Positions 10,575 through 45,240 of a stretch of DNA of 64,000 nt are shown here, in pieces. Source of the stretch: Polytrichum commune (taxonomy: Eukaryota > Streptophyta > Polytrichopsida > Polytrichales > Polytrichaceae). Each line of letters opens with the position of its first letter. Positions within the stretch are counted from its first letter, which is position 1. The translations under genes and the position numbers were made by a program. The notes beneath the pieces were generated by a model, which ran no database searches, was not told the origin of the DNA, and was given only the letters and a program-made list of their open reading frames with translations. Location: the NCBI GenBank assembly GCA_950295325.1, contig OX485808.1, positions 35,859,180 to 35,923,179 of the forward strand, written 5' to 3'.

Positions 10575-12046
10575 ACAATTAGACGAAAGACATTTATACT
10601 AAGGAGTTGGCACCTCACTTGTTCACCAGAATCTCTAGTGAGCTACTCCTTGCTAATGGATCACCCTAGTTGCCTATTGTGACACTTATATGTGCACACG
10701 TTAGAAGTCCACTATCCAGTTGCTGGGCTTTTCAAATTTTATATTCCAAATTTATATATCAAAAGAGTTTCTTGTTGTATTCACAAAAACCTCTCATCTT
10801 CTGTCCTGCGTCATACAACCCCCAAACATTTGTCAATGGTCTTCATCTAACCTTGAATCTGATTTTGTACACTCACTTCTTGAAGAATACACAGTAAACC
10901 TGTCATTCAGTCAGTTGTAGCAAGAAAATGTTTTACCACCTCCATGTCAAATTACTTGGGACAATAATTTGTGAACTGTACAGCATATCCTGCAGGCTAA
11001 GAAATGATTCTACCATTAAATATTGAATAAAGTTTTCACATTCATCTGCTGGACAGAAGAGATAAGTTGCCAAATGAACACTTCTCCTAGGAAATCAAGC
11101 ACACTGCCAGTACGAGATGATTAGCAAATACAATTTAAGGCTGTAGCCATTTTCTACATTACCAAAGTCAAAATGATAGTGACATATGACATATGATAGC
11201 CCACTCTCGGTGCATTGAAATGGAATGTTGATGTCACCAAAAACCAATGAAGAGCATGTATGGATTTTACAAAGTGGAAAACTGAAGGTACACATCAGAT
11301 ATGCATCCTGTTCGAAATACACCATCTACTTGGAGAAGGTCTGATGACATTCCATTAATTTATACCAAGGTGAAATCAACATTCCAATTCCATTCTTGCT
11401 TCCATTATGGGAATCTGCCGGGTATGGTATAATACACTAAACATTGTGACAACTCCCAGATTCCACTACACTGTTTATGGTAATGATTGTAACTTATTAT
11501 TTGGAAATACGCAATGCAATAACTTCTACTCCTGGCTTCAATGTTACTCATGAAAGCTGAATAGGTTGTTCAGACATTATAGAACGTAAATGACTTTGCT
11601 TGGTATAATTTTACATTCTCAAAAAATAAATTATAGCATTGTGTAATTTCGAATAGTAAGTGACACGAAATACCATAAATGGTGTAGTTGTTGGTTATAA
11701 TAGCAAGCAATTTTTACGTAAGAGAAAGCAAGACTAAATGGGGCATACAGGATGGCAAATTTCTAACCCTATAGTGCATAACAATGAATGGGGAGAACCG
11801 GCTGCTAGTTACAGATGAATTGGTCGAAGTTCAAGACTTCAGGAAAATTACCAATGGAACCTATGGAAGATACCTCAAATTAATAAAGGCAACTGAAAGA
11901 TGTCAACATGTAACTGGTGAGACTTGGAAACATTAGGATCTCAACCGATTATGCCCAAAAATCTTCCCAAACATTGGTGCATAATGCGCCACAAATTCCC
12001 AGCCCCATGGTGCATTGACCTATCTTAGTGATGTTACACAATATCA
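10575..12046. other. Downstream of malate dehydrogenase: 3' UTR and intergenic DNA
   Basis: The first few hundred bases are probably the 3' UTR of the malate dehydrogenase gene. Beyond that I see no recognisable gene, RNA or structured repeat before the SINE at 12047. Short frames on both strands lack domains. Confidence 0.4.
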
Positions 12047-12281: not shown

Positions 12282-12365
12282 ACTCTAACAAGTGAGATAA
12301 ATTTCATACGCAAGCATTCCAAGGGATGTTATGTTGAATTGATAAAATTAAAAGTAGGTGGAACG

Positions 12366-12390
12366 TGCGGTGAGCGTGGATCGAACACGC

Positions 12391-12433
<43 letters not shown>

Positions 12434-12438
12434 CCCGC
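12366..12438 (-). tRNA. tRNA-Phe(GAA): tRNA-Phe (GAA), cytosolic type
   Basis: A 73 nt cloverleaf including the discriminator A, with no intron. The acceptor stem starts GCGGGGA, the D arm is TAGCTCAGTTGGGAG, the anticodon loop reads CTGAAGA, and the T arm is GTTCGATCC. It resembles eukaryotic cytosolic tRNA-Phe rather than the plastid gene. A TTTT stretch lies about 12 nt past its 3' end (12350-12353) and another soon after, suitable as Pol III terminators. The upstream neighbour tRNA-Glu is only 14 bp away. Confidence 0.97.
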
Positions 12439-12452
12439 AGAGAGCCACAGAA

Positions 12453-12525
12453 TTCCGTAACCGGGACTCGAACCCGGGTCGCCTGGGTGAAAGCCAGGTA
12501 TCCTAACCATCTAGACTATTACGGA
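12453..12525 (-). tRNA. tRNA-Glu(UUC): tRNA-Glu (UUC), cytosolic type
   Basis: A 73 nt cloverleaf with acceptor TCCGTAA paired to TTACGGA plus discriminator A. The anticodon loop is CTTTCAC and the B box GGGTTCGAGTCCC. The sequence just upstream on the minus strand (TCAACATCAAAT) has CAA triplets of the kind that mark plant Pol III start sites. There is no T run between it and tRNA-Phe, so a shared precursor is likely. Confidence 0.97.
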
Positions 12526-14188
12526 ATTTGATGTTGACATATCTGTTCAAAAACAATCTATTCCATCTTCTTCGTTCTTCCTCACTAGCAAGAGGTACGG
12601 TGCTCGATATAGGATGCAATACCAGTTCCAATTCTCATTGAATAGTCATAGGACTAAAACCTTACGCACAAACAGGATACTGACACAAGTCACAGAGAAC
12701 AGGAAATGAAGACTTTTCATAGGTAATGAGAGGAGATTAGGTACTTGCTTTGATAGCGGTGATGCATAGAGGGTTTGATAGTAGTTTAATTGAGTGGAAG
12801 CTCGAAACTGTTCACCGTTTTCCTTTATCAGGCTCTCAAATTGCCCTGGTGCATAGAAATCCTGCGACGGATGACACAACTCTCTGATGGAACTGTTCCA
12901 TAGAAAATTACAAAAACACAGATCTTTCTTGTCCAGCTGCTGCTCAAGTAGCTATGAATATCAATCAATAACAATCACTCGTTCCTTAAACTAATACTCA
13001 GCTAGGTAACCCACTTCTGAACACATTAAATAACAGTTGCTGAAACCAACCACTACAATGATACATTTCTTTCAACTCAAGATGACTGATAAATGGACAA
13101 GAAAGGTTGGCCGAATGACATTTACAATGGCGTGCATTGAAAACACTGGTGAACAACAATCATGACATGGATACATCAATTGGTCTAAATACTTTGGACC
13201 ATTTAAAATAAGGTGCTGTACAATAAATCGCCCCATCAAACATTCACATTTATACCTGCCATACTAGGTGCTTTCTTATAGTTAAGGACTACATCCTATT
13301 CTACGATCCAGACTAGATAGAATAAAGAGTACAGTAGTACTGAAGAACATTCTTCATGAAACTAGACTTTCAACTATGAACAGGACCTCACACATACCTT
13401 CTTATGCTTCTGCCAACATTCTTGGGCTTCAGTAGTTCTCATCACAAAGTCTGAAGAACCTCCTGTGCTTTGGCTTGCAGTACATAAAACATGGGTCCTG
13501 CTCCAACTAAAATGGCAATATAGGACTCAGGTCATTTACAGTACTAACCAGTGTATCAAAAAGTCACAATGCAGGAAAGATGTTGAAATCACATCTGTCT
13601 CCGCAGATTCATTGCAGAGCATAGTCTTACATACACTCATGTCTTATGAGTGAATACAAGGGCTGCTAATGCAACAAACCTGGAAAGGTGCTGAATCCCA
13701 CCATACCTGAACATCTCCAACACAAGGAGTATGTCATGACACTCAGCTGAACAGAAGACCTAACAAGAGAGATCAGAAACCCTGGCATATGAATGTCAAT
13801 TTCCATCACATATGCTAAAATGGAAAGTATTTGTTGCCCAGACTTGCACCACAAGCAGGCCAATATAAATGCATTGCCAAGAAAAGTAAAAGTGATATCA
13901 TCCTGAGCAGTAAAAACTTCACAAGGCAAAAAGAATCCATGAAAAACTATAATTGAAAATGGTTAACTTCATAATTGGGTACACTGCACACGAGCTCCAA
14001 ACTAAACCAAATTGAGCAATCAACAGGTACTCATCAGAGTCACCCATGGTTAGGCCCAAAAGTGCTTCTAACACAATCTACATAATCGTCAGGATAACTG
14101 CATGATACCCACAACTTTTGATCTTTGACAATCACTAATGGCCACAAAAATGAACTAATACTTGGGTGTAACAAATGGCACCAGGAAA
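12526..14188. other. Downstream of RBM25: 3' UTR and intergenic DNA
   Basis: The part next to 14189 is probably the RBM25 3' UTR (minus strand). Minus-strand frames at 12646-12879 and 13666-13929 have no recognisable domain, and I could not connect them to a gene. The upstream sequence of the tRNA pair lies at 12526-12560. Nothing else was recognised. Confidence 0.4.
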
Positions 14189-28392: not shown

Positions 28393-29094
28393 ATGGATTT
28401 CGACATCGTAGATGATATCAAGCCGAGATTCCAGTTGCGATCGGAGCCTCTCAACAATGCGGAAGAGGAAAGCAGCAAGGATGTGGACAAAGTGCTAATT
28501 GCAATCTGCGTTAGTGCCGCAGTTTTATTAGTAGGTCTTTCTTGGTTCCTTACCGGTGTGCTTCAGTTTCTTACTCTGTGGTTGGCGCTCTCTCTCGGTC
28601 TCGGCCCTTTCGCGCCTTCCGCTTTTACGGGCGGCGATTGTAGAGTGGGCAAAGGGGAGCCTCTTCCCGAGGTGGAATCGGTAGAAGTGACCCCAGCTGA
28701 AACTGAGAGAAGACCTAAATTCGGCAGTAGGAGGTCGGATGCAAGCGTCGCTAAGGTTTCGTCAACGGATAATCTACAGACTCCAGTAGAGGTAGAATCG
28801 AATGGCAATCATTTGCAAGGGAGCTCAAAGGATGTGGCAGAGAAGGACCTTCCGAAAAACGGCAAGGATGGCAATGTCAAAGGGAAATCTGATTGGACTG
28901 AGGCTCAGGATAAAGCACTTGTGTTGGCGTTGAAGACATTTCGGAAGGACACTCCAATGCGATGGGACAAAATTGCTGTTGCTGTACCTGGCCGTTCCAA
29001 GGCCCAGTGTTTCAAAAGGTTTTCAGAGCTTCGAGAGGGCTTCCGAAATGCAAGGAATGAAAACAATCAGGGTGGAGATTCAGGGTTGGAGTAA
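28393..29094 (+). CDS. Two-TM protein with C-terminal SANT/Myb-like domain
   Basis: A single-exon gene of 233 aa. Residues about 34-56 and 58-75 are hydrophobic and can form two adjacent membrane segments. They are followed by GPFAPSAFTGGD, a block I recall from a small plant family annotated as homeodomain-like or SANT membrane proteins. A charged linker leads to a SANT/Myb-like domain at about 166-215 (DWTEAQDKAL, then MRWDKIA and GRSKAQCFKRF). That domain resembles those that bind histone tails or DNA. Membrane anchoring with a SANT domain suggests an inner-nuclear-envelope or ER protein, or one released by proteolysis, but no experiment known to me supports a role. The start gives an N-terminus (MDFDIVDDIKPRF) like the family. 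Confidence 0.85.
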   Translation: MDFDIVDDIKPRFQLRSEPLNNAEEESSKDVDKVLIAICVSAAVLLVGLSWFLTGVLQFLTLWLALSLGLGPFAPSAFTGGDCRVGKGEPLPEVESVEVTPAETERRPKFGSRRSDASVAKVSSTDNLQTPVEVESNGNHLQGSSKDVAEKDLPKNGKDGNVKGKSDWTEAQDKALVLALKTFRKDTPMRWDKIAVAVPGRSKAQCFKRFSELREGFRNARNENNQGGDSGLE

Positions 29095-29870
29095 CGGTAG
29101 ACTGATTGCAGGTTCCTTCTGAGTTTTAGAAATTGTTGTTTCTGCAATTTTGGATTGAAACATGAAGAGCTAGATAGAGGGAGTCCTTTATACAATAACA
29201 CACGCCATGCTCAGAGTTGTATTCTAAACAAGGGTTAATTATCTACAGGATCTGTTTCTAAAATGAGCAGGTCTGCAGTTCCTTCTTAGACTGGATCATT
29301 GTTGCAAGCTCCTATGATGCTTGCTGCTCAAGAATGATATTCATTATTTATCTCTGAATCTATTGAAGTTGGTCTGCCCCTCCAACCATTTTCTTAGTCT
29401 CATGGCGAACTCTCGGCTGTGGACATACATTGCACTTGAATTCTCTCACAACTGTGTAGCGTAGAAGTAGCGTTTCTCATTGAGAATATTGATGGATCCT
29501 TATGTTGTCTATTGACATGCTCTAGAAACCAGCTGATGAATTTGCAGTGGACTGCCTTTGGATGCAGAACCTCATGATTCAGAAGCCTTTGGATTTCTTG
29601 AATCCGCACAGCTTTACAGCTTGATAGGTACTATGAGTTTAGTGATTGAACATGCTGTCTTGGTGATGTTGCTGGACTTTTCAAGGCTCTCTAGATTTGT
29701 CTTCTGAGTTCCCACATCACCCATATTCAAGCAACACAGAAGACTTTCTCTTTGTGAATATGAAATAGATTGTTTACTGATTGTTTACCACGGCAATCTT
29801 GGATAGAGGTTCTGCTTCGATGTTTACACATGGGTAATATTTCTATGTTGCAGAATCATTTTGTTCCAGG

Positions 29871-30172
29871 CAGGTATGGAATGCTGAGTATCTGCATATG
29901 AGAGAAATGCATTTATTTCAATCACTTATCTGCGGGCAGTCTTAGGTTTATGATCAGGTGTTTGAATCTGTTGATATTGGTTTATACATTCTTCTGTTTA
30001 TATCTGGATAGAAACCAGAGCAGCAGGAACATCGCAGATCCATGCAGGTATGGGAGGTTGATTACGTACGAAGAGAAGTGTATTCGTTTCAAACATTCAT
30101 CTGAGGGCAGTCTTAGGCTAATAATAGGGTATTTGAATTTGTTGCCATTGGTTCTTACTCATCCTTCAATTT

Positions 30173-30213
<41 letters not shown>

Positions 30214-30440
30214 TGCAGTTATGAAAGGTTGAGTATGTACACATGAAATGAAGTACATTCATGTCAAACACTCATCCGAAGGCAATCTTAGGCTTATGAT
30301 TAGGTTTTTGAATTTGTTGACACTGGTTCTTATATATCCTTCAAGATATATGTGCATAGAAACCAGAGGAGCAGGAATATTGGGATCCATGCAAGTACTG
30401 CAGGTTGAGTATCTACACATGAAGAAAGATGTGCATTGCA
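29871..30440 (+). repeat. Tandem repeat, unit about 170 bp, also found in the gene at 38091
   Basis: Units start at 29871, 30044, 30215 and 30391 (the last partial). Each begins near CAGGTATGGGAGGTTGAGTA or a variant. Each carries CATTCATCTGAGGGCAGTCT and TTGAATTTGTTG blocks and ends in GCAGGAACATTGCAATCCAT or similar. In the second unit the last part is replaced by a (GA)16 microsatellite. The same unit occurs 2.7 times at 41018-41460. Confidence 0.85.
30177..30208 (+). repeat. (GA)16 microsatellite
   Basis: Sixteen GA dinucleotides within the second unit of the 170 bp tandem repeat. In plants such tracts can be bound by BPC/GAGA-type factors; nothing here shows that they are. Confidence 0.8.
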
Positions 30441-31621
30441 GTCGGCCAGAATTCTTGACAAAATTCCTTGTCATTTCTATACACTAAGATTACCCATAAA
30501 GCAACACTTGTTGGACTATGGAAGAGTTGGATCACAGAAAACCCTTAGAAACATCAAGGAGAATTAGACAGGTGAAGAGTGGTATCTTAAAGAATCTGAC
30601 CAGACTTGGCATTCTTTGCGACATGATGGAAAAATCCAGTAATATAGCAGATGCATTGGCCACCTTTCGAAGGCGTGTGGTCTGGTCACAAGTCCGACCC
30701 TTTGGTTGTTGCTGAGGGAAATGGATCTTAAATGGTTACTTTTTTCGACTAGCTCACTTCTCCTAGGACATGACACACATGATTAGTACAAGATGATTAG
30801 CAAGCCACTTCCTCATAATTTTTGGAGCTCATGTGGAGATCTTTTTTATTAAGGAAAGTGAAGATTCTTGTGATCATTAAATGGTCATACACGTCCCTTC
30901 AATTGTGTTGATTATTGAGCTTTGAATGGTTATCATATTTTGAGCACATAATCCAATTTCTTTTACGTACATGTCTTTTTGGTATCCGTTCTTGGAATCA
31001 AATCCTATACCTCACAAATACAAGTGTCTTAATACTTTGGTAAGATGACCTTCACAAAAGTTTACACCTCAATTTCATGATAGTGGACCTTTACCTCTAG
31101 CAACTTCATGAATCTTCCAAAGAGATTTCATAAATTTTTATACACTCTGTTTTTCATATTCTCAACTTTTTGCCTCCTCGTTGTGCAATCTTTGCCTTCT
31201 TGTTGTTCATTGTGTCTCATTGTTTTGTGTTTACTTGGAAGTCTCGCCTTGATGTTGATTTTTCTTTGGTCTTTCATTACAATACCTCAAAGTAGGAAGC
31301 AAGCAATGCTGATTCATTCTTTGGTCATTGATTATTGTACATCAAAGCAAGCAACACAAACCCGATGTAGTTGGAGTGCGCAATCTCGTGGATTTGAGAG
31401 TGTAGTGATTAGGAGTTATACATGATGTATCATTCTTTGTGTAATAAAGTTAAAGAGTTCATGAAATTGATTTTGTGAAGTTGTGAATATTGGTACCATA
31501 TCATGAATTTGTTCACAGCATGTAGTTAAATTGGTTGAAAGTTGAAGTTAAATTGGTTGTCTATATAGTGAACTTGGTTCATGATTCCAATGAAATTGTT
31601 AGAATTGATTGATAAATTGGT

Positions 31622-31748
31622 TTGTAAAAACATGAAATTGATTTTGCACTTCCGTGAATTCATTTTTATAGACCAAAGATATTCGTGTTCATTACTTGGT
31701 CGTAAGATGAATTTATGGAAGTGCAAAATCAATTTCATGATTTTACAA
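31622..31748. repeat. Foldback with about 54 bp arms
   Basis: 31622-31676 and 31695-31748 are imperfect reverse complements. The central 23 bp (31631-31653 against 31717-31739), starting CATGAAATTGATTTTGCACT, pair perfectly. The loop is about 18 nt. A further partial copy of the arm, CATGAAATTGATTTTG, lies at about 31458. It resembles a MITE or a young small-RNA hairpin. Confidence 0.75.
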
Positions 31749-31934
31749 AAAAACCTAAACACGACCACCTAAATACGCGGGCTACTTGGTGGGTGTGTAT
31801 ATGTTTTGATTGTCTATTTGGTTCTTTGGCTCTTTTTGGTTATTTTTGGAGTTTATATTTTGAGCACCACTCTTTGACATAGTTTCATGTTCCTATTGTA
31901 ACCATATTACTTAAGGTATGCAGGTGTTATGTGG

Positions 31935-32275
31935 ACCCCTAAATTTGATTGGTATCTAGTATGGTGAGGACCAAAGAGCAAACATCATAAAGACACATGT
32001 TTAAAAGAGATTGGACTATGTCTTCCAATATTAGTCATTACTTTACACTCAACAATGAACACAATTGGGAGGACCTATGTATCCAATTAAGAAATCAACA
32101 AATATGCACTTCTGATAATCATAACTAAAGCAAGGTAGGTTTGATTTTCAATCCAATTTTACATATGTTCCATCGTAGATTTGCTCATGCCACACAAGTA
32201 TTGTTGTGTAAATCTAATTAGTAGAAGTCAGAGAACATGGAAAATGAACCAAGTAACACTCACATACCTTAATGC
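31935..32275 (+). mobile_element. Dispersed repeat family, copy B
   Basis: Aligns with 632-980 from GGACCCCTAAATTTGATTGG to the end of the ACATACC block, with shared words such as CAAAGAGCAAACATCATA and TATCCAATTAAGAAATCAAC. No coding capacity or terminal repeats were identified. Confidence 0.65.
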
Positions 32276-32887
32276 AATGACAACATTGATTTGCTTCCAA
32301 AAAGAAAAAAGAAAATGAAGTGCATTGCCATCATTTCAAGCATTCATCCGAGGGCAATTTGAGGTGGCAAGAGGAAATGTTTGCATATGAGCATATCTCT
32401 TATCATCCAACAAGAACACCTTGAAATAGAATGTAGTTAGGACGTTGTTTGCTTAAGATAAATTGACACTTGAATCGACCTCAAAGACCCCAAATTAGTC
32501 TAGTGGACCACATTTGAAATGAAACTAGCACAAACACACATGGAGTAGGTTTAAAACATGGATGGATGATAGATACACTTGTATACAACAACCACTCTCC
32601 CCATTCAAGGTTTATGATGACTCCATAATGTCCTCATTTCCTATTATTTTTTTTATCAAAGTTTAAAAAATATTTTGCAAGTTCAAGAACACATTAAAGA
32701 ACACATATTGTTTGCATATGGTATGCACAATTTATAAAGAATTCAACATAGAATTGGTAGGTGACCCAAGACCGACACCTAAATCAAATGTTTAGGTGGT
32801 ACATAAGTTCTCATAACCAATTTGTAAATGTGATAAATTGATGGGTGTTGGTTTTGGGTTAGTGGTGGTTTTGGGTATACATATTTG

Positions 32888-33165
32888 AAGGTGGGTTTAC
32901 ATTAGGGTCTTGGTCTAGGAAACTTGGGGTCCAAAACACCCCTTCATAGACATCAATTTCGGACTCAAGATTGGATCCAAACTTGAAGATTGATCTCTTA
33001 AACTAGGATTGTTTTCTTAAGTGGGGATTGCTGTGATGGATAGTAATGCCACGCCAACTCTACCTCAATTTTTCATACCTTGGACCCGGACCCTAGTGTA
33101 AACTCCATGGGTCCAAATTTAGCTCTCTATCAATACACTCACTCAATTTTGATGATTCTTTGGTC
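32888..33165. mobile_element. TIR element related to 21909-22222, opposite orientation
   Basis: The left end GTGGGTTTACATTAGGGTC pairs with GACCCTAGTGTAAAC around 33090. The region to 33165 is similar to the reverse complement of 21945-22010. Exact ends are unclear because the two TIR-like blocks lie at different distances in the two copies. Confidence 0.5.
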
Positions 33166-33229
33166 TTTGACCTTTTGATTGTTATCCCACCGTTAGTGAC
33201 ACGAGTTAGCAACCCTTGTTTTATAAATT

Positions 33230-33715
33230 GATTAAGTATTTTTGTGTTTTTTTTAATAAAAATTTATAGACAAGATTTTCACAAAAATATAAAAAATTAT
33301 ATAGTTAAGAAATAGTAAAAAAATTAAAGTAATTATATGTTAATAAATTATTTTTGTCAATGCCAAATGAAACTAAAATTTATTTTTTATTTTAAAAATA
33401 AAATGATAAGCTTATCATTTTATTAAATTTTTTTTTTATTTAAATAAAATTTATTTTCTATAGAATCTACAATAAAATAAAAATAGTGCTAATATTAAGA
33501 GTATTTTTAATTGGAATAAGAAAAACTAAATACATATATAAAGAAAGGAAAAAAATGGATAGTAAAACAACAATTGAATAGGACCAAAAAGGGGACTCAT
33601 AAATTTCTCCTAAAATTTACGTTTAATTTATTCAATTTATTTAAAAATGCGCATATATAAATATAACGTTTTTATTTATTATTATTTTTGTTATTTTTTT
33701 ATTATACAACGATTG
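33230..33715. repeat. Very AT-rich block with a 28 bp perfect palindrome
   Basis: Nearly 500 bp composed overwhelmingly of A and T, clearly above its surroundings. 33397-33424 is a perfect palindrome centred on AAGCTT (half site AATAAAATGATAAG). Candidate matrix-attachment or nucleosome-poor DNA upstream of the fusion gene. No gene is present. Confidence 0.6.
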
Positions 33716-34052
33716 CATTTGCCACCTCAGTGATGTTCCTTGTAGCAAAAGTGAAAAGTAAAAATACAAAACAAATTCAAATTCAAAAGTAAAAGTAAAA
33801 GTAGAAATATTGAAGTCTTCATACAACACGTGCATATTCAAAGTATCTAGTAACAAAGTAAAAGAATGCAAAGTCACAGGATATTTTTTACTTTAAGTGC
33901 CAAATATATATATGTATATGAGCCATTTAATGTGTAATGTATTTAGTATCATCCCATTTAGAGAGCAAGAACTCTCGTTCCTACGTATTCTGCTCGTTAC
34001 AACCTAGTTCGAAGTAAGAGAGTCATTGGAGAGGAGACCAGAGTACTCGATC

Positions 34053-34285
34053 CAGTGTCCGGGGAGATTCTTGACACAATCTGTCGAGATCCTAGTGTTT
34101 TGATCCAAGTCCAATCGGTTAGGTGTTGACATCTTTCGGTTTTTCTTCATTAATTTGAGGTATACTCTTCAAATTCTTCTACAACGATCGGTAATCTTCC
34201 TGAAGTCTTGAACTTCAACTGCTTAATTCTCAAACTAAACCGGTTCAGCTGTCACTAGCGGTCGGCTCTCCCCGTTTATTAGTGA
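34053..34285 (+). repeat. Leader repeat, copy 1, directly upstream of the fusion gene
   Basis: A 233 bp segment from CAGTGTCCGGGGAGATTC to CTCCCCGTTTATTAGTGAG, ending 8 bp before the start codon at 34294. It carries TCGAGATCCTAGTGTTT, TCTTTCGGTTTTTCTT, GGTAATCTTCCTGAAGTCTT and ACTAGCGGTCGGCTCTCC. The same ordered blocks recur twice downstream of the gene (36138 and 36464). It is the likely 5' UTR or a long-terminal-repeat remnant. Confidence 0.85.
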
Positions 34286-34293
34286 GCAACAAG

Positions 34294-36051
34294 ATGGGGT
34301 TTTGTGTGAAGAGGGCTTCTCAGCGTGAAGATCATAATAATGAGAATGGTGAGGAGCTTGCACATTTGAAGGATATTGTGGGTGACAGGAGCTCTGCGTA
34401 CTACCTGGTGAAGCATTGGGATGCTTACCGCAAGAGGATTAGTAATCTCGTCAACCATGTCACCGCAGACAATATTAAAGTTGTTGTTGCAGCTCTTCTC
34501 AAAGAAAACATGTCCGACGGAGCAGGAGTGTTCACAAGCTCGTGTCTGAAGGCGCAAATGGTTGCAGCTCCTGAGATGACACCTGTATTTGCCGCGTTGG
34601 TCGCAAAGCTGAACTCAACCGTTCACGACATCGGACAACTTGTCCTCAAGAGGTTGCTAATGCATTGGAGGCGGGCCTTCAAAAGGAACGATAAACATGT
34701 GTTGCTGAAAGCAACGAAGTTCCTTGCGCACCTTTTGAATCAACAGGTGGCCAAGGAAACCCTCGCATTGGAGATCGTGACGCGGTTGTTGGCAGAGCCT
34801 ACTGAGGACAAAGTAGAATGTGCAGTTGAGTTCGTAAAGGAAGTGGGTCGTCTCTTACGATTCTTCTTGCATAAGGAAATAAAGGGTATTTTTAACAGGT
34901 TCCTAGAGATTATGTACGAAGGAGGCATCGACAACCGAGTCCAAACCATGATCGAAGACCTGTTTGCAATCCGCAAGGCCCGGTTCCAAGACTTTCCACC
35001 AAAAACTCCGGAGTTGGATCTACTTGCAACGGGTGAGTGTAAAATTCACGAGGTTACCCTTGACGATGAGTTGGAGAATGAAGAGAGTGGTGCTGATATC
35101 TTCGGAAGATACCCTAGCTTCATGGAAGATGACAAAACTAAATACGAATCCATCATACATGAGAATTTGGGTAACATTCCAACTGATGTTGACCTTGACT
35201 TTGGTGATTACTGCAACAATGATGGGGAAGAAGATCGAATGGAAACTAGCCTTATTCGTCTGCGGCGTGCTATCTGTGGCACCCTCTCAAAGTGTGTTTC
35301 CATTGAAAAGTCTGGTTTTACATTAGATTCGACGCATCATGTCCTCAACATCAAAGTGCAACCTGGCCAAGAACTAGAGCTATGGGTAATGCTCATAGAA
35401 TTTTGTGGTCGGGAAGAAACTTACACGCCATACTATGCTCGTGTTGCTGAAAGTCTATGCCGGAGGAATAGAAACTTATATCAAGGCATCTATGAGCGTT
35501 GTTTCACAATGCAAGTTGCACTCATCAACCGATTGGACAACAACAATCTCCGCAATGTGGCCAAGTTCTTTGGCCATTTGGTAGGCAGAGGTTCAATTTC
35601 ATGGAACAATAGTTTATTCCCCGCCAATCTCCCGAAGGAGGCTACCAACTTATCGTCACGCCTTTTCATCGACATCTTGTTCCAGGAGGCTATAGAGCAC
35701 ATCCGGCTGGGTCCATCCAAAGTCAAAGCCCAACAAGAACATTCACGAGAAATCCACATCGAGAGGAGAATGCCTTCCATCATCGAGAACAAGAACCAGG
35801 ATGTAAAGGTAGACCAACAAGTGTTGCAACCTCAACCCGAATTGGTAGGCGAAGACATTGAATATGAAGTGGAGGCTATATTGAATAGCAAGAAGACAGG
35901 CAAACGAGGGAAGCAATATCTCGTGAAATGGAAAGGCTATGAAGTAGATGAGGCAACTTGGGAGCCGGCGGCGGCTCTCAAGAATGCAAGGGAGGCGGTG
36001 CGAGAATTTGAGGCCACGAAACGACCAACAAAACGGCGACGAACACATTGA
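34294..36051 (+). CDS. CWC22-like MIF4G/MA3 protein fused to a C-terminal chromodomain
   Basis: One uninterrupted 585 aa frame from ATG 34294. Residues about 50-230 form a MIF4G domain collinear with CWC22, the spliceosome/exon-junction-complex factor that escorts eIF4A3; shared blocks include FAALVAKLNS, KRNDKHVLL and VQTMIEDLFAIRKA. An acidic linker (about 255-315) precedes an MA3 domain (about 316-435) with NNLRNVAKFFGHL, close to CWC22 LRNVAKxFAHL. The normal CWC22 basic/RS tail is absent. Residues about 520-577 are instead a chromodomain (EYEVEAIL, QYLVKWKGY, EATWEP) with the aromatic residues expected of a methyl-lysine cage, of the type found at the end of chromovirus integrases. The end KRPTKRRRTH is a likely nuclear signal. 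Lack of introns points to a retrocopy. There is no stop or frameshift, so it may be active. Function is inferred, not known. Confidence 0.88.
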   Translation: MGFCVKRASQREDHNNENGEELAHLKDIVGDRSSAYYLVKHWDAYRKRISNLVNHVTADNIKVVVAALLKENMSDGAGVFTSSCLKAQMVAAPEMTPVFAALVAKLNSTVHDIGQLVLKRLLMHWRRAFKRNDKHVLLKATKFLAHLLNQQVAKETLALEIVTRLLAEPTEDKVECAVEFVKEVGRLLRFFLHKEIKGIFNRFLEIMYEGGIDNRVQTMIEDLFAIRKARFQDFPPKTPELDLLATGECKIHEVTLDDELENEESGADIFGRYPSFMEDDKTKYESIIHENLGNIPTDVDLDFGDYCNNDGEEDRMETSLIRLRRAICGTLSKCVSIEKSGFTLDSTHHVLNIKVQPGQELELWVMLIEFCGREETYTPYYARVAESLCRRNRNLYQGIYERCFTMQVALINRLDNNNLRNVAKFFGHLVGRGSISWNNSLFPANLPKEATNLSSRLFIDILFQEAIEHIRLGPSKVKAQQEHSREIHIERRMPSIIENKNQDVKVDQQVLQPQPELVGEDIEYEVEAILNSKKTGKRGKQYLVKWKGYEVDEATWEPAAALKNAREAVREFEATKRPTKRRRTH

Positions 36052-36068
36052 TGAGAATATCAACCTCC

Positions 36069-36084
36069 AAGAGAGGGGAGCGGG
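36069..36084 (+). other. Polypurine-tract-like sequence followed by TG
   Basis: AAGAGAGGGGAGCGGG starts 17 bp after the stop codon of the fusion gene and is followed by TGAAAATAAATAG. In chromoviruses the chromodomain ends the pol frame and is followed closely by the polypurine tract and the TG of the 3' LTR, so this layout matches. No full LTR pair has been defined. Confidence 0.5.
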
Positions 36085-36137
36085 TGAAAATAAATAGATA
36101 TTATCCTGCTTGCAACATTTAGGTTCATGCTGATGTT

Positions 36138-36363
36138 CAGTGTCCAGGAAAATTTTGGGCAGAATCGGTCGAGATCCTAGTGTTTCCAAGACCAAACGAT
36201 TACATGTTGACATTATTCTTTCGGTTTTTCTTTGAAGAGTCGAAGAATATTTATGTAAATTCCTCTCAATAAATCGGTAATTCTCCTGAAGTCTTGAACT
36301 TCAACCCGATATTTCTCAAACCCAACAGGTTCATCTGTAAACACTCATCGGTTTTCCCCGTTC
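36138..36363 (+). repeat. Leader repeat, copy 2
   Basis: Aligns with 34053-34285 from CAGTGTCC through CGAGATCCTAGTGTTT, TTTCGGTTTTTCTTTGA and CCTGAAGTCTTGAACTTCAA to TTTTCCCCGTT. It lies 87 bp after the fusion gene stop. There is no gene start after it: the sequence continues into AAAGCTTATG without a comparable frame. Confidence 0.8.
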
Positions 36364-36463
36364 AAAGCTTATGTTGTACTTGTGCTTTGTTAATAAAATG
36401 CAATTCAACAAGATGTTGGTGCGTATGTGCAAGTGGTAGTAGGATGTGTCTACGTCTTCTGAG

Positions 36464-36780
36464 CAGTGTTTTGGGCACAATCAATCGAGATCCTAGTGTT
36501 TCCAAGTCCAACCGGTTACACACTGACATCTTTCAAATTTTCTTAATTAAATCGAGGAAGATTTTCTAAATTCCTGGAAAATGATGGGTAATTTCTCTGA
36601 AGTCTTCAACTGTGACCTGTAAATTCTCAAATTCAACTGGTTCGTTTTGCATTCGTCATCCCAGCTCTTTTATTATGGTTGATAATGACGTGCTTAAGAA
36701 GTAAGGAAGTGATGTAGCGATTGTTTTGATGCTTTCTACACATCTGTAACTAGCGGTTGGTTGTCCCCGTTGTTTATGAG
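36464..36780 (+). repeat. Leader repeat, copy 3, with an internal insertion
   Basis: Shares CAGTG, CGAGATCCTAGTGTTTCC and CTGAAGTCTTCAACT with the other copies, and ends with AACTAGCGGTTGG then TCCCCGTTGTTTATGAG, very like copy 1. About 90 bp of extra sequence sits before the last block. No CWC22 or chromodomain coding sequence follows. Confidence 0.75.
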
Positions 36781-37224
36781 GCTAAGTCGATGGAAAAGGA
36801 TCAAATTAGTTGGGCGAGCACTTGGTGATGGTAATCTTAGTTGGGGATATGTTCATGTGGACACTAAAGGCCCTTCCTGCTGGGCTTTAATAATACCAAA
36901 TAACCAAAATGTTTTTTTAAACCTAGTAAAGCTCTTTTGGTTATAGGGGAGGCACCTGGCTATCCCGGTGCACTTACAAGAACTTGCTGTGGAGATTTTT
37001 GAGTAGGTTTTAGTTAGGTAGCTTTCACACATATTCATTTTTATTTATCGAGCAACAACATATTGAATAGTTTTTGTCCCATCCCTGAATGCCTTACCAC
37101 TCATTTGTCTCATCATCATGTTTTTTTAATGGAGCTCCTTATGCCCTCATAGCTAAGACTAAAAACAAACAATCACAAGGACCGAAGACGACACTTTTGA
37201 AAATCCTACATTCTTGCTTCATCT

Positions 37225-37315
37225 CTAGGTACTGATGGGAGGGTCGGTGCTTGAGGCTTCAAACCTCCGCTCTTAAACCATATCACGTCGTCCTTTACCA
37301 ACTAGGCTCGGGACT
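37225..37315 (-). mobile_element. Possible tRNA-derived SINE or tRNA fossil
   Basis: On the minus strand GCCTAGTTGGTAAAGGAC resembles an A box, and about 25 bp later GGAGGTTTGAAGCCTC resembles a B box. The acceptor stem does not pair, so it is not a working tRNA gene. No tail or flanking duplication was found. Confidence 0.4.
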
Positions 37316-37429
37316 AGATGATGTCAATGATGTGAAGGCCGTGTTTTTAGACCAAACTTTTAGGATAAGCTAAAGTCAGGTGGCAAGGGGCAGCAAACTA
37401 AAGAACTCCATGATGTTGTTTGGAACCGT

Positions 37430-37664
37430 CCACGTGTCACCATTTGTAACTTGGCTTTGACCCTAAAGTGTTGCCATATTGACTGCTTTAAACAACAATG
37501 AGAAAGTTTCCAACATTAAACCAAATACACGTAGAGAATGTTTCGATTTTAATCTGAACCCAAGCTCAAGAAAATGAAAGGATTCTTCTCGTAGCCCCGC
37601 CTTCACTGACTAAAAACAGAATGACCAAAATGTCCTTTGGAAATGTCCACGTGTCACCACGTGG
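37430..37664 (+). promoter_or_regulatory. Duplicated ABRE/G-box sites upstream of the hydroxyacid dehydrogenase
   Basis: CCACGTGTC occurs at 37430-37438 and 37647-37655, each preceded by a TTTGGAA..GT block and followed by ACCA, so a block of roughly 25 bp is repeated. A palindromic CCACGTGG follows at 37657-37664. These ACGT cores are bound by plant bZIP and bHLH factors in ABA and light responses. They lie about 430-660 bp before the start codon. Confidence 0.5.
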
Positions 37665-38090
37665 TAGGCTACGACTCAAAAAGCATGCTGTCAGCTGGTT
37701 TGGTTTGGGCAGCACGGGGGCGGCCGAACCAGGTACTAATAAATCCGAAGGTCATCTTTTGAAAGGAGTAACGACACAGACTCATAGTCACTCGCACCTT
37801 GATACTCGAGCTCATTCGACATGAACTAAAGTAAGTTCATCAGGAATCTTGCGGGAAACACTCCAGTTGGGGGAGAGAAAAATCATGGTTGACATCTGCT
37901 TAGCTTAACTTACCTCCCTCCACATTCATTGCCACTCGGCCTGCTCTGCAATCGATCCATCTCCTCGCATTCATCATTGTTTCGTTCTTGGCACAATCAG
38001 TCAGACAGAGTTTGTTGCCTTTAACGCAAACAGGTTGAGAAGGACAGGAAAGTTGTTTGGTAGGTTTTATTTGTGAGAGTTTTGAGTTCA

Positions 38091-41000
38091 ATGGGAGAGG
38101 TGGGGAAGGAGCCTAAGCCTCTGCGCATTATCTTTTGCGGGACTGAGTTTCCGGGCGCGGAGATTTTCACTCGGGAGAGTCTGAAAAAGTATCCACATCT
38201 TCAAGTAAGCTCCCTCTTCTCCGGATTTGGCAGAGACATTCTCGAGGGGTTTCTTTTGCATCTGGGATGGGTGCCTCACTTGGGGAGGGTTATGTTTGCC
38301 AATGTCCTTTGCTGTTTTTCGTTTTTGGGGAAATTGGCACGGATTTGTTGGTTTTGGTCAAGGTGGGCGCCAAAAATCCAAATTGGTCAGCTCTGGACAC
38401 CCATTCCATTGGTGATGGGAATTTTTTTGTGTACCTTATGTATTCTTTCCTTCTTGAGACGTCTTTGATTCAAAGATGATTAGGTGCAGATTAGCAGCTG
38501 TTCTTGCATCTGGGATGGGTGCCTCACTTTTGGAGGGTTATATTTGCCAATGGGGCGTTGCTTTTTTCCATTTTGAGGAAATTGCTACAGGATGCTTGGG
38601 TTTGGTCATTTTTCGTAATTCCAAAAGAATCTGTGAAGAATTCTTCTCAGAGTTTCCATAGTTGATGGATTTTGTCAAGGTGGGCGCCAAAATCCAAATT
38701 GGTCAATTCTGGGTATCCATACCATTGGTGAGGGAAGTTTTAGTGTACCATGTACTCTTCCTTCTTGTGATGTCTTTGACTCATAGATGGGTTAGGTGCA
38801 AATTAGCAGCTGTTCTTGCATCTGGGATGGGTGCCCCACCTTTCGAGGGTTTTGTTTGCCAATGCGTATTTCTTTTTTTATTTTGGGGAAATTGGTACAG
38901 CATGCTTGGGTCTAGTCATTTTTTGTAAACCCCCCCGCCCCCAAAGATGTGAAGAATTCTTGTCGGAGTCTCCATAGTTGATGGGTTATGTAAATGTGTG
39001 CACTCAAACCCAAATTGGTGAATTCTGGGTACGTAGACCATTGGTGAGGGAAATTTTAGTTCACTTTCGGGTTTTTCCCCTTCTTGAGATGGGTTAGCAG
39101 CTGTTCTTGCACCTGGGATGGGTGCCTCAGCTTTGGAGGGTTATGTCTGCCAATGTGCATTGCTTTTTGGCTTTTTGGGGAAACTTAAATAAGTAGGGGC
39201 AGTAACTAATTTGTGGGCATTTCCGGGCAGCTGTGAGCGTCCTATTGTTGTGAAGTACTGATGCAATGCAATTACAAATCAGTTGGATGCTTGGCCCAGG
39301 GAGGAAGTGCCTGAGAAGATAGAGGACTATGATGTCTGTGTGCCCAGGATGATGCGCCTTGATGCCGCGGTGATTGCCCGTGCCAAACGCTTGAAGCTGA
39401 TTTTGCAGTATGGTGTTGGATTGGAAGGTAGGCGTTTGCCCCAGACTATGAATTGTATAAGAATGTGAAAGTAAAGCTTCTATGTCTGTCACGTGCGAAG
39501 ATTGTTTCAGCAATACCTGGGTTACGAGCCTTGGGTGAATTGCAGAAGTTGTATATTTTGAAGTTTATCAAAGTCTGTCTATGTTTCAATTTTAAACCGC
39601 GATCATAAGAAAGCCCTGCAGTTGGTGGAGTAATGTTGAGGACTAGGCATCTTTAGTGTACAGAAATATAACTTCCCAAGATGACTGCAAAATTGGGAGA
39701 TCATCTGAGCCAGCCTTTTTTAGGATCCGACGTGTGTCACCTATCGAGGATGTTCTCACACAGCATATACAATTCTTTAAGGTTATCGAATTCTGTCTCC
39801 AAACTTCATATCAAGTCGCGATTTTAAGACACTGCTGCAGTTGGTGGACTAATGTTGAGAATCAAGCATCTAAAGTTTACAGAAATCTTACTTTCTAAGA
39901 CGACTGTAAAATTGGGAGATAAATCTGGGAGCCACCCTTCTGCAGGATCTGACTTTTGTAACCTATCGAGGACGTGGTGAGTTCCAACACCTGTGGAAAC
40001 GGTCAGTGGGTTCTACAGTACATAATAGTGTAATTTTAGATTTGTGATGTGGATTTTCCAGGGGTGGATGTAGAAGCCGCCACACGAGCAGGGATCAAGG
40101 TGGCAAAAATTCCAAGTGCAAATACTGGGAATGCATTAGCATGTGCAGAGCTTAGTATATATCTCATTCTCGGCCTCCTCCGGAACCAGGTAGAGCGTGT
40201 TATCTGTTGCTGGATGTATTTACTCTTGTTTTGAAGTTTCTGGCTAATTTTTGATACATGGACTGATTCATTTTGCAGTTCAAAAACCATTCTGGGTCGA
40301 GTCTTAGTAGATGATAATCAGTTAGAGTTCCAGTGTTTCATCTACCATACTTTGCAAATAAGAGTTACTTGAAAAATATCATGCAAATTATCATTGGATG
40401 GTATTGGCTAAGTTTTATCCTGCTTGTGTCCTCCACACATCTGAGGATATTTTACAATTTCTGTGTTGGCAGAAAGGCATGGCGTCAGCAATTGCCGGAA
40501 TGAGGCTAGGTGAACCCACTGGGGATACTTTGTTTGGAAAAACGGTACGTAAACAACTATCAATCCTACTTATTGAGTGTGTGCTGTGATTCAAGTCACC
40601 CGTGTTACTCTGCTTTTTAATTTATTGCAAGACATACTATATCCCAGAATCTGTACAGTGTTGATTGATGTACTCGGTTAGATCATGTTGATTATATTTC
40701 TGGACTAAGGTTGTTTCTAGAGGTTTTTTTTATTGTTTAGAGATGGCTAGTGTCTGGCAAATTGTGGTAAATGCTAAAACCTGAAGGCCCTTTCTGTTAC
40801 TGGGTGACCTGCAGGTATTTATTCTTGGATATGGTAATATTGGCAAGGAGTTGGCAATACGACTACAAGCATTTGGAGTTCACATACTTGCAGTCAAACG
40901 CTCTTGGACAGGCTTGATCTCCTCAGATGACATCCATTGTGAGAAAGGTATTGAGTTCATCAGAATTGGTCAGAACTTGCATTCAAAGTGCGCTAGCAGT

Positions 41001-43599
41001 TTAACTTATCAGCGTTTTTCCCAAAGTGCATTCAGTTCAATGATTCACTCATCTGAGGGCAGTCTTAAGATTACAACCAGGAATTGAATTTATTGGTCCA
41101 TAAACGTTCTGCAAGTTATATTTGCATAGAGAGCAGAGTTCCAGGAAGTGTGCAATCCATACAGGTATGGGAGGTTGAGTATCTACATAATAAAGAAGTG
41201 CATTCTTTTGAATTAATCATTTGAGGGCAGTCTTTGGATTATCATTGGTACTTGAATTTGTTGCTACTGGTTCTTACATATCCTTCAAGTTATATCTGCA
41301 TAGAAAACAGAGTAGCAGGAACATTGCAATCCATGTAGGTATGGGAAGGTTGGAGAAGTGCATCTGAAGGCAGAGGTTTAGGCTTTTGATTAGGTGCTTG
41401 AATTTGTTGGTATTGGTTCTAGTACATCCTTCAGGTTATACTTGCATGGGAAAAGACTAGCGTGAATTGTACAATAAAAGTGCACCGGCTGGTTAATCTC
41501 AGGTGTTATGCACAGGTTTGCAGATTGATATCCAATCAAAACCCTGTGTGGAAGATGATTTGGTTCATGAAAAGGGCAGCATGGAGGACATACTTAATTT
41601 TGCAAGCCGTGCTGACATTGTTGTAACATGCTGTGACTTGAATCCTTCATCGGTGAGATCCACAGCTTCACCTAATCTTGCATAGAAATTTTCTATTGCT
41701 ATTTCTACACAAAGATTACAAGCAGCTTTGACTGATTTAGGTCCACTGACTGTAAGCACTTTACATGAAGAAATGCACAAATTCACTGCTAATTTAGAAC
41801 TGTACAAGTACTGTATGATCAGGTCTGATTGGGCACTTCTCTGCCGAAATTCCACATCCATGTCATATTGTAGCAAGTTTCCAACCAATTATATGATGAC
41901 ATGCGGCAATGTAAGACAAACAAAAAGAATCTGCGTCTACTTTGACTCACTTGTAGGGTAATCTACGAACATTGCCAATTTTGTCACGATTTTATCCCTG
42001 CTGACTTTCGAAGCCTAACAACCAGCTGTGTTCTCATCCTTGCTTCCAGTCTTGCTGAAATAGAACACTCTGACATAATGACATTTGTTTTGCTCATCTC
42101 TACCCATGTGTGTGATTGGCACATCAAGATTTCGTGTTGGAAGGCAGAGGGGTCTTACTGATGATGTATTATCTGCTGGTACTTGCAGAAAGGGATTGTG
42201 AATGCAACTTTTCTTTCTGCAATGAAGAAGGTGAGCATCATTTGTTAGGCAGACTCCTAAATTCTCATTTCTTGGTGTCTCGCACTATTTGCAGCATCTG
42301 GTAAGTACAAGGGAGTGAAGAAATTACTACTGTCATGTGCAATGTGCAACAAGGATTTTGTGATATGAATTTGTAGTACAAGTACTGTACTGCCCAACTT
42401 GGAAAAAGGTGACGATTTGGTGAATTTTTCCAAGGATTTTACAAAATACCAAGTAGGGTTGCTCCTTAATAACTTTGGGCACATGACTGGTGAGTTTGAC
42501 CCTTAATAAAAAGATAATAATGTATGAAACTTGTGTTAGCTGGGAACTTAAATAGACACGGTTGGATCTTGTAATATGAGTTTAGGTAAGTAGGTTTCAT
42601 CTGGATGTAGACAAATCTTACTTCTTTTATTCAGAATTATCTGTAACAACAGAGTTATTCATAATGTCCCTCAAAGGAGGAGCCTAATTTTGAAAGTTGG
42701 GGGGAAACTCCTTTCTTGACCTCTTTCAATCCAACATACTTTGAGAGAACTTTAGGATCCATAATTGGGTCAGATCCATGGGACCTGTTACCCTAGAACC
42801 TTGCTCAACCTATGCAAGACTAGCTTTGGCCATTGTTCCTAGAATGAAAAGATAGAAAGTTGATTTTTAATAACCCAACCCCACTCCTTTAACATGCCAA
42901 TCTAAGCCTTAAGAAGACTTGGGTGACTTTATCCATAAGTTCTCGAAGCTCACCTTTTAGTCAACTCACCTGGAGTTTGATCTGGAGACTTCCTGAATAA
43001 CTCTAATATCTACATCAACAGAAGAGGACTGTACTATTTGCATCCCATTTTACAGGGTGCTCGTGTGGTGAATGTTGGACGGGGAGGATTGCTTGACTAT
43101 GATGCAGTCATGGCAGCCCTGGAATCAGGACATCTGGGTGGGCTAGCTATTGATGTGGCATGGACAGAACCCTTTGATCCCTCAGACCCTCTTTTGAAGT
43201 ACCCCAATGTTTTGATAACACCTCATATTGCTGGGGTTACCACATTATCTTATCAAAGTATGTCAAAGGTATGTTTGCACATCAATGCTTTTCTAGTATT
43301 TCATGTCATTTTCAATCAACGAAAACTTTACTTCACTTCTCAAAAGATCTTGCAGTTCAATGTACACTCAAGGAAATCAGTGAAGCAATAATCTCTTTTG
43401 TCCAACTGATTCCACTGAGTCTCCATCTTGTGGACTAGATTGTAGTGGTTAGTAGAGTACATGACTTAGATTTCTTATGAATTTCATAGAACTTATCATG
43501 CCTTATTTGTGCTTTCCGTGTGTTTAACAGGTGGTTGCAGATAGCATCAACCAATTCTCGACTGGCTCTCCCATGCCTTTGATTGAATTTGGTAATTAG
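38091..43599 (+). CDS. D-isomer-specific 2-hydroxyacid dehydrogenase family protein
   Basis: Predicted NAD(P)-dependent reductase/dehydrogenase of a D-2-hydroxyacid; the natural substrate is unknown. Exons: 38091-38204, 39283-39427, 40062-40189, 40473-40544, 40815-40947, 41516-41652, 42189-42230, 43056-43268, 43531-43599. All phases close for 350 aa. The Rossmann motif VFILGYGNIGKELA is in exon 5. The catalytic triad is present: Arg in NVGRGGLLDY, Glu in AWTEPFDPSDP, His in LITPHIAGVT. Overall order and sequence match the plant clade of Arabidopsis AT1G72190 rather than the plastid serine-pathway phosphoglycerate dehydrogenases, which carry an ACT domain that is absent here. The N-terminus (MGEVGKEPKPLRIIFCGTEF) shows no obvious transit peptide, suggesting a cytosolic enzyme. 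Introns 1 and 5 carry tandem repeats. Confidence 0.92.
38251..39190 (+). repeat. Tandem repeat in hydroxyacid dehydrogenase intron 1, about 250-310 bp x 3.3
   Basis: Units start at about 38251, 38501, 38813 and 39103 with CTTGCATCTGGGATGGGTGC or a variant. They contain GAGGGTTATRTTTGCCAATG, TTTTGGGGAAATTG, CAAGGTGGGCGCC and AATCCAAATTGGTCA. The array fills most of intron 1 (38205-39282). It is unrelated in sequence to the malate dehydrogenase intron array. Confidence 0.85.
41018..41460 (+). repeat. Tandem repeat in hydroxyacid dehydrogenase intron 5, shared with 29871-30440
   Basis: Two complete units and a part (starting about 41018, 41162 and 41337) with the same order of blocks as the array at 29871: CAGGTATGGGAGGTTGAGTA, GAGGGCAGTCTT, TTGAATTTGTTG, CATCCTTCA, then AGCAGGAACATTGCAATCCA. 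Unit ends and starts abut as CAG|GTATGG, which resembles joined splice sites. Confidence 0.85.
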
Positions 43600-45240
43600 T
43601 GAAAACTGCAATGATCAAATGTTACTTGTTAGGCCATACCTAGTCTCCTAGATGATTTTATTATCCTTGGAAGGTTTGGACGTTACTTGCTAAATATAGA
43701 ATAGGTGGTGATGTTGAATTTGGGCAGATGCGTAGACAATGGTTGTCCTATAACCTATTATGACAGTCCTAATCCTGACCTCTTATTTTTATAACCAACT
43801 CAGCAAAAGGTTGCCACCTGTTACTGTAATACACTTCAAATTTGAACCAAAATTCTTACGGGTGCAACCAAGAACGCTCAAGTAGAGCTATTCCAAATTG
43901 GTGAGGGGCAACTTGAGATTGAAACGTATGTACTAGATACTGGCCATACGCTGAATATACCCACAGTTTTTCTCTGGGAAAGAGGATCTTCGAGTGAAGA
44001 AACTGCAATGTCCAATGGGTAACTTGTTATTAATGTAGTTTTATTGATACAGTGGTGTGCTGGCCTACTAATTTTGTGTGATATTATACCGACTACTGTA
44101 CACTTCCTTTTTGGAAGTAACTCTATGGAATAAGCTATCATAATCATGTATTAATGTCTGCATGAAGAGAGGGAATTATTGTATACGAACATACCTCTCG
44201 TCCATCCAATATAAGATTTTCTCCCCTGTACGTTTGTTGCCAATTTATCTTGAATGACCTCAAGTTAAGTAATTTGGGGGCTTTACTCTAAACTAATTTT
44301 GGTGTCAAATTAAGTAAAAAAAGAAACCTTTAGGCTTCATACTATTCAAGGGCTTTTATGTTGGATGAATGAGAGGTATTCTCATATAGAATAATAAGTC
44401 CCACTCTTGTTTGCATCATGAACTCAATAATGTTTCTATGCATGTTCAACATTACATATGGCAATGTGTGCAAGACCTTGACGTGACATACATCTCTTAC
44501 ACCAATTATTGTGGTCCACTATAACTTTGTCATACTACAATAACTTTGGTCAATGTAACTTTTCTTGACCCTATATATTTTGAAACCCACTATGTCATAT
44601 ATTCAAAGCTACGAATATGGGAACAATAGTCTCTATAAAAACATGAATTACTGTTGGTTAAAAAGAGGAAAATGAAGGCAAAAAGGATGTGGCACACATA
44701 TAAGGCACCTATCATATGTGATTGTATTTACAACTGTCAATTTCAGTTTGTAAGTTTATAGGCTCAGGACAGTTGCCTTGGATAAGTAAAACAAGTGGAT
44801 GATAATCACATTGTCATATTCAGAGGGAACAAATTTTACACTGGCAAGCAACACAGCACATTGCAAGCTCTTGAAAATAATCCTTGCAACTTCTATTTGG
44901 CAAACAAACTAAAGAGGCAACTCAATAGCCTTTGGCCAGTTCACTGACACCAGAAAACTCTAGTAGGAACTTGTAAAGTTGCATGAACCATCACTTCATA
45001 GGACTAAATTCTGATGTAGCTTGGCTGTATGCAAGCACCAGGGACTGGGAGTACCTACATGCAGGTCACATTGGGCATAGATTATTTTTTTGCCAGAAAG
45101 TGCCAAACGTCATCATGTGATTGGTCGGAACATCCTAAATAATGACATGGACATTGAATCTAGGCACAGAAATGCCCAATCAGCCCTGAACGTACAATAG
45201 ATGCTTGAGGTCGACACTGACCAATAGCAGGGTACAAAAA
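43600..45240. other. Convergent intergenic region with a MITE
   Basis: The 3' ends of the hydroxyacid dehydrogenase (+) and glutamate synthase (-) genes face each other here, so both 3' UTRs lie in this stretch. A MITE occupies 44173-44398. The remainder shows no recognisable gene. Confidence 0.5.
44173..44398. mobile_element. MITE with about 42 bp terminal inverted repeats
   Basis: The left end contains ATACCTCTCGTCCATCCAAT. The reverse complement of the right end gives ATACCTCTCATTCATCCAAC, with pairing continuing on both sides for about 42 bp. About 226 bp, non-coding, and not similar to the other MITE ends in the window. Confidence 0.75.

Follow-up and report, generated by a model that had tools for sequence, protein, structure and literature searches.

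A single open reading frame in the 64,000-nucleotide stretch of Polytrichum commune DNA analysed here (hereafter the window) joins the MIF4G and MA3 domains of CWC22 to a chromodomain. The explanation that we favor, with moderate confidence, is an old chimeric gene of mixed host and chromovirus descent, in which a CWC22 core of 480 residues, a linker, a chromodomain reading methyl-lysine, and a basic tail would have been kept open as one frame by selection. Residues 1 to 480, with their MIF4G and MA3 domains, would descend from CWC22, and the chromodomain most likely from the C-terminal end of an integrase encoded by a Ty3/gypsy chromovirus. The original prediction had named these parts (MIF4G and MA3 of CWC22 followed by a chromodomain, in an uninterrupted frame) correctly, as both the Pfam assignments and the matches to solved chains confirm.

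The frame (34294-36051, plus strand) runs from ATG to TGA over 585 codons with no internal stop. It lies in a stop-free run of 615 codons, open since a TGA at 34201, which is the longest in the window; by comparison, no run exceeded 214 codons when the window was resampled 30 times with a Markov model, or 282 codons in 10 resamples at the composition of the frame itself. The 585-codon frame is not a product of chance. Its translation gave 3 Pfam domains above the gathering score, namely MIF4G (residues 47-228, 34432-34977; E = 3.1e-15), MA3 (residues 339-435, 35308-35598; E = 5.4e-11), and Chromo (residues 524-573, 35863-36012; E = 5.1e-16), while the linker ahead of the chromodomain (residues 481-521, 35734-35856) is without a significant relative. 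That two separate genes have been read as one frame through an error of assembly or annotation is scarcely credible; nothing was observed in its favor, one frame crosses the junction without a stop, and the GC content at third codon positions hardly differs between the parts on either side of codon 486 (0.50 in the first, 0.515 in the second). Upstream, a TATA-like TATATA (33905-33910) might mark a promoter and no ATG occurs between 33940 and the start codon; downstream, a putative polyadenylation signal AATAAA (36089-36094) lies 38 bases past the stop codon. Together, these features would suit a transcription unit, although such short motifs prove nothing.

The kinship of the first part of the protein was determined from solved structures. 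The 5 best-matching chains are all CWC22 or CWC22-type, with E-values from 5.7e-90 to 6.7e-79, and match within residues 24-480 (34363-35733), while weaker matches to other CWC22 entries extend to 4.4e-17 and eIF4G is reached only at 0.0038. With MIF4G preceding MA3 and CWC22 as the best match by a wide margin, this part belongs to the CWC22 family. A query-anchored alignment was built from the matches to 4 chains, those of human CWC22, cwf22 (which we take to be from Schizosaccharomyces pombe), 8xi2 (which we take to be from Chlamydomonas), and 9l5s. Across the core, the fused protein is 44.6% identical to 8xi2, 40.9% to 9l5s, 40.4% to human, and 37.3% to S. pombe, compared to 52-58% among the 4 references themselves. 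At 1.06 substitutions per site, its branch is 2.9-3.7 times as long as those of the references (0.29-0.37). Where all 4 references are identical, the fused protein keeps the residue in 86 of 136 columns (63%; 64/96 in MIF4G and 22/40 in MA3); in leave-one-out comparisons, each reference kept 75-92% of the columns on which the other 3 agree, and the fused protein 53-67% of the same columns. The CWC22 part of the fused gene is therefore, to judge from this alignment, a fast-changing relative and no ordinary CWC22. Its origin from a cDNA, as originally proposed, might be inferred from one feature only, the absence of introns.

The losses probably include the contacts of CWC22 with eIF4A3. In residues 38-57 (34405-34464), the region that corresponds to the eIF4A3 anchor of human CWC22 and its surroundings, Asn171 is kept as N54, whereas Lys172, a lysine in 4 of 4 references, is replaced by H55 and Gly168 by N51, so that the Asn171-Lys172 pair is not preserved. 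This interval retains just 4 of its 13 invariant positions, whereas 60 of 83 are retained elsewhere in MIF4G (Fisher p = 0.008, a value qualified by the choice of the interval after inspection of the list of losses). A second motif, Y133/R140, lies in a region matched in the human, S. pombe, 9l5s, and 8xi2 chains (with a lysine at position 140 in S. pombe); the similarity of the fused protein begins at human residue 141, so this motif falls outside the match. In a study on human CWC22, N171D/K172E is reported to abolish eIF4A3 binding and Y133E/R140E to lower the affinity about 100-fold (PMC4482076). With a histidine for Lys172 and no counterpart of the Y133/R140 motif within the matched region, the fused protein would have lost its eIF4A3 contacts, and the loading of exon junctions was probably lost as well. 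The protein would thus no longer load eIF4A3 and would not be a standard subunit of the spliceosome.

Loss of eIF4A3 binding does not by itself abolish splicing: according to the same study (PMC4482076), the splicing function of human CWC22 does not need eIF4A3 binding, the segment 110-665 suffices for it, and in human cells this segment carrying N171D/K172E supports splicing while leaving the endogenous exon-junction function unperturbed, whereas full-length CWC22 with the same substitutions strongly impairs viability. Both kinds of loss present in the mutated human segment recur in the fused protein, whose core is shorter still. The CWC22 similarity ends at residue 480, equivalent to R500 of 9l5s, which is the first 9l5s residue matched by a conserved block (human 602-649) present in the human, 8xi2, S. 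pombe, 9l5s, and budding yeast chains; this block, which precedes the S-domain of the human protein (665-717), is not matched in the fused protein. Since the similarity ends where the conserved C-terminal block begins, the breakpoint lies near base 35733, and since the block is contained in human 110-665, even the minimal functional core is incomplete. The protein instead ends in 12 residues, ATKRPTKRRRTH (residues 574-585, 36013-36048). The original prediction described a basic tail in place of the usual RS tail, and the tail is indeed basic (6 lysines or arginines and no acidic residue), but the replacement extends further, as the conserved C-terminal block is missing too.

The extent of change in the core bears on how the frame has been maintained. 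At positions where 8xi2 and human agree, 90 of 216 are changed in the fused protein. When neutral substitutions, and substitutions only, were simulated on the frame, 2.2% of 1000 copies stayed open at 5% change per site (3.8 stops on average) and 0.1% of 1000 at 10% (7.1 stops on average). As neutral change so rarely leaves the frame open while 90 of 216 of these positions have changed, the frame has probably been maintained, and we infer that selection held it open as a host gene. However, the substitutions themselves do not resemble those in a conserved splicing factor. Columns conserved in all references are retained at 86/136 and those partly conserved at 40/80 (p = 0.064). The changes at conserved columns have a mean BLOSUM62 score of -0.11, compared to -0.46 for one random step (-0.11 was reached by 25 of 1000), -0.93 for two, and -1.08 for three, and to +0.71 for the changes in 9l5s and +0.81 in S. 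pombe; positive-scoring changes (33 of 90) are no more frequent than after one random step, with 207 of 1000 reaching 33. This pattern argues against conservation of the splicing function and is in line with constraint that has been relaxed or altered, and whatever selection maintained is, on this pattern, not the old job of CWC22. The near-random substitutions and the loss of core CWC22 features would also be expected of a functionless chimeric retrocopy in decay whose frame is open by luck. Given the small chances of an open frame at even 5% or 10% neutral divergence, set against the changes already accumulated, as well as the coding-like GC content by codon position (0.54/0.34/0.50), we regard such a decaying copy as very unlikely.

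The chromodomain is complete, with the cage aromatics that had been described for it. The equivalents of HP1 Y24, W45, and Y48 are Y524, W546, and Y549, which together with the chromo box YLVKWKG give it the features of group I chromodomains. A model of residues 480-585, calculated from the window sequence and 7 chromovirus rows, has a mean pLDDT of 73.7, rising to 91-94 over residues 530-569, and superposes on the chromodomains of CDY1, MPP8, Rhino, and HP1 bound to methylated peptides with an rmsd of 1.0-1.5; a full-length fold from the single sequence (mean pLDDT 42.9) was set aside. The domain therefore models like readers of H3K9me3. In HP1, N60 and D62 line the peptide groove. Their equivalents are A561 and K563, so that binding of methyl-lysine is not certain.

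Whether this domain came from a chromovirus or from a host gene is less easily decided than its fold. In one study, group I chromovirus chromodomains have the Y24, W45, and Y48 equivalents as well as the chromo box, and the same features occur in host HP1-type domains, so the cage and chromo box cannot separate the two sources (PMC3350952). For comparison, a panel of chromovirus chromodomains was obtained by scanning prokaryote assemblies with a chromodomain alignment, which returned 11 loci (L001-L011). The contigs concerned are filed under bacterial or metagenome-assembled genomes (for example, NZIP01000057.1, CALGTL010000116.1, and CADCWO010000016.1) and carry chromovirus polyproteins, evidently through eukaryotic contamination; the polyprotein frames of 6 of the 11 loci were scanned, and all 6 contain RVT, RNase H, integrase, SH3_Tf2-1, and Chromo domains. 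The identity of the fused domain to 7 chromovirus C-termini is 28-44%.

A profile of 9 chromovirus domains scores the fused chromodomain at 75.7 bits and a profile of 8 host domains at 62.3 bits, a difference of +13.4. None of the 8 host controls exceeds +5.0 (range -5.9 to +5.0), while the chromovirus controls, each scored with itself and its close relatives left out, span -5.0 to +14.3, with 2 of 9 clear of the host range, 7 within it, and 4 below zero; the test has little power, since it misses most chromoviruses, and its controls were trimmed somewhat differently. In the tree, which like the whole assignment draws on about 50 residues, the fused domain joins L005, L006, and L008 with a support of 73, followed by a split towards host domains with 59, and the chromovirus domains L009 and L010 fall among host domains with a support of 25. 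The linker was considered as a candidate remnant of the integrase SH3 module and rejected as such: when residues 468-521 were compared with 8 chromovirus segments, the best scores were reached by 22 of 500 shuffles (L008) and 31 of 500 (L005), not significant for 8 comparisons, and the L005 alignment starts in CWC22-derived residues. Extending the profile over the linker brought no gain (73.7 bits compared to 75.7 for the chromodomain alone).

A fusion of 2 host genes, with the chromodomain taken from a cellular LHP1/HP1-like gene and no transposon involved, would account for the cage and chromo box, which are common in host domains, and for the poor separation of the two groups by the profile test. 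A basic stretch likewise follows the chromodomain of LHP1. Furthermore, the solved structures matching the fused chromodomain are those of host domains, although no chromovirus chromodomain is among these matches. Against such a fusion, the host profile scores 13.4 bits lower, a difference beyond every host control, and in sequence similarity LHP1 comes after CDY, CDYL, and MPP8; we consider such a fusion rather unlikely. A chromovirus source of the chromodomain is thus favored by the profile scores and the tree, yet not proven. For the chromovirus type put forward in the original prediction, the 13.4 bits and the tree placement speak in favor, while 7 of 9 chromovirus controls lie inside the host range and the supports are 59-73.

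The surroundings of the frame raise the further question of whether it is the cargo of a transposon. A repeat of about 230 bases occurs 4 times in the window, with copies 68-76% alike. Three of these cluster around the fused gene on the plus strand: copy 1 (34053-34281) lies in the 5' leader and ends 12 bases before the start codon, copy 2 (36138-36367) is downstream of the frame, and copy 3 (36454-36643) is followed by a further piece at 36741-36776. Copy 4 (11795-11977, minus strand) is dispersed and sits about 400 bases from 2 tRNA genes. The repeat has no match in Rfam, whose search of the window found only these 2 tRNAs (Phe GAA and Glu TTC, 13 bases apart at 12365-12526 on the minus strand).

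The direct repeats on both sides of the frame would be expected if it had replaced gag-pol in a nonautonomous long terminal repeat (LTR) element, with selection keeping the element and not a host function. Other features agree with such an element: the fourth copy is dispersed, no domain follows the chromodomain before the stop, an arrangement also seen in chromovirus frames, and a 12-base purine run (36069-36080), which may be due to chance, lies 17 bases past the stop codon, at the site expected for a chromovirus polypurine tract. Plant LTR elements are known to capture genes, as described in the literature (PMC13317346). However, copies 1 and 2 were rejected as an LTR pair. They agree in 136 of 177 gap-free columns, and copy 4, the dispersed one, agrees with either of them in 134. 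The two copies beside the frame are thus no closer to each other than to copy 4, which gives no indication that they are LTRs of a single insertion. The similarity between copies 1 and 2 could also not be extended outward to LTR ends (96 of 300 shuffles were as good on the left and 175 of 300 on the right), and neither a primer-binding site nor a target-site duplication was recognised by eye around the frame. In a tblastn search of the window with 9 chromovirus polyproteins, all 9 matched the chromodomain, and a single other match appeared at E = 0.35. Six-frame Pfam searches of 29000-43900, 29900-34293, and 36052-40445 found no reverse transcriptase, integrase, or gag, in a weak scan that recovered Chromo from the gene's own frame and missed its MIF4G and MA3 domains (at 4966 and 1464 residues); this absence carries limited weight, and a nonautonomous element would lack reverse transcriptase and integrase anyway. 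It should be noted more generally that hmmscan of long six-frame translations with X at stops can miss real domains, as it did for MIF4G and MA3, whose E-values are 1e-10 or better when the protein itself is searched. The second possibility raised in the original prediction, a transposon with a host gene as its cargo, finds no support here: tblastn found no other chromovirus sequence in the window and the repeats do not behave like an LTR pair, and we hold it to be distinctly unlikely.

The window is otherwise eukaryotic, gene-bearing DNA. To the left of the fused gene lies a frame with a Myb domain (28393-29094), and to the right a 2-hydroxyacid dehydrogenase gene with a probable start at 38091 and Pfam matches from about 39.3 kb. 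Farther right, minus-strand frames contain GXGXG and pyridine-nucleotide oxidoreductase domains, presumably as in NADH glutamate synthase. The fused frame itself occurs once within the window, and no relatives in viral contigs were confirmed.

Several other repetitive features were observed. An apparent intron of the dehydrogenase gene contains imperfect tandem repeats (38232-39170), some of them spaced by 316 bases; the same spacing separates copies 2 and 3 of the 230-base repeat, and blastn detected no similarity between those copies and the intron repeats. A repeat with a period of about 170 bases forms 2 clusters (29923-30428 and 41046-41372) that are 10.8 kb apart and flank the fused gene, and an inverted repeat of 46 bases, 91% complementary around a 37-base loop (31621-31749), resembles a small foldback element.

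Returning to the old chimeric gene as the preferred explanation, the chromodomain would tether the protein to chromatin methylated at H3K9 or H3K27, where the MIF4G/MA3 part could scaffold an RNA helicase or some RNA-processing partner. The original prediction had envisaged a new host protein linking splicing factors to methylated histones. The in-frame fusion of CWC22 and chromodomain and the better chromovirus score agree with this, whereas the presence of a working CWC22 is doubtful in view of the altered anchor, the missing block after MA3, and the near-random substitutions. More speculatively, a domesticated chromovirus chromodomain might re-target a CWC22 core freed of exon-junction loading to methylated chromatin, as a dedicated chromatin-guided regulator of RNA processing (e.g., for transcripts from transposons or heterochromatin) that would have arisen independently of Rhino-type HP1 proteins; we put this forward only tentatively, as a scenario that is itself rather improbable. 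Rhino is not known to contain a MIF4G/MA3 part. It would be an analogue in function only, through the link of a chromodomain to the control of RNA processing, and kinship is claimed for the chromodomain alone; Rhino is described as an HP1 variant that defines fly piRNA clusters in which splicing is suppressed (PMC9531945).

Compared with known systems, the fused protein shares with CWC22, a factor of the spliceosome and the exon junction complex, the order of MIF4G and MA3 and a core identity of 37-45% to the 4 reference chains; it differs in its altered eIF4A3 anchor, the unmatched block equivalent to human 602-649, and the chromodomain found instead. With the group I chromodomains of Ty3/gypsy chromovirus integrases, it has in common the aromatic cage, the YLVKWKG box, and the position as the last domain before the stop, but no integrase, reverse transcriptase, protease, or gag was found with it, and the domain is joined to a cellular protein. 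Mouse R2d2 includes CWC22-related copies, and in this respect is similar; in the 64-kb window, one copy is present and no amplification is seen. As in maize Bs1 and other plant genes captured by LTR elements (PMC13317346), host coding sequence is joined to retroelement sequence, whereas here no LTR element is demonstrable and the host part spans both CWC22 core domains instead of segments of several genes.

New genes are known to arise as chimeras of a host gene and a transposon domain, the familiar cases mostly involving DNA-binding transposases or capsid genes. The fused gene would belong among host/transposon chimeric genes, a kind already known, while its pairing of CWC22 with a chromodomain was not found described. 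The earlier expectation that no protein of this architecture had been reported accords with the titles and abstract beginnings of the listed open-access papers on CWC22 or MIF4G with chromodomains, on CWC22 and retrotransposons, and on chromodomain domestication, where no combination of MIF4G, MA3, and chromodomain was found; likewise, a term search of a paper on accessory domains in polyproteins did not return the word MIF4G (PMC6338049). The architecture may nevertheless exist unnoticed in related genomes. If our reading is true, the joining of a spliceosomal scaffold to a retrotransposon histone reader would constitute a direct physical link from chromatin marks to RNA processing. It would furthermore mean that the eIF4A3-loading part of CWC22 is separable in evolution, as it is by mutation in human cells in the study cited above (PMC4482076).
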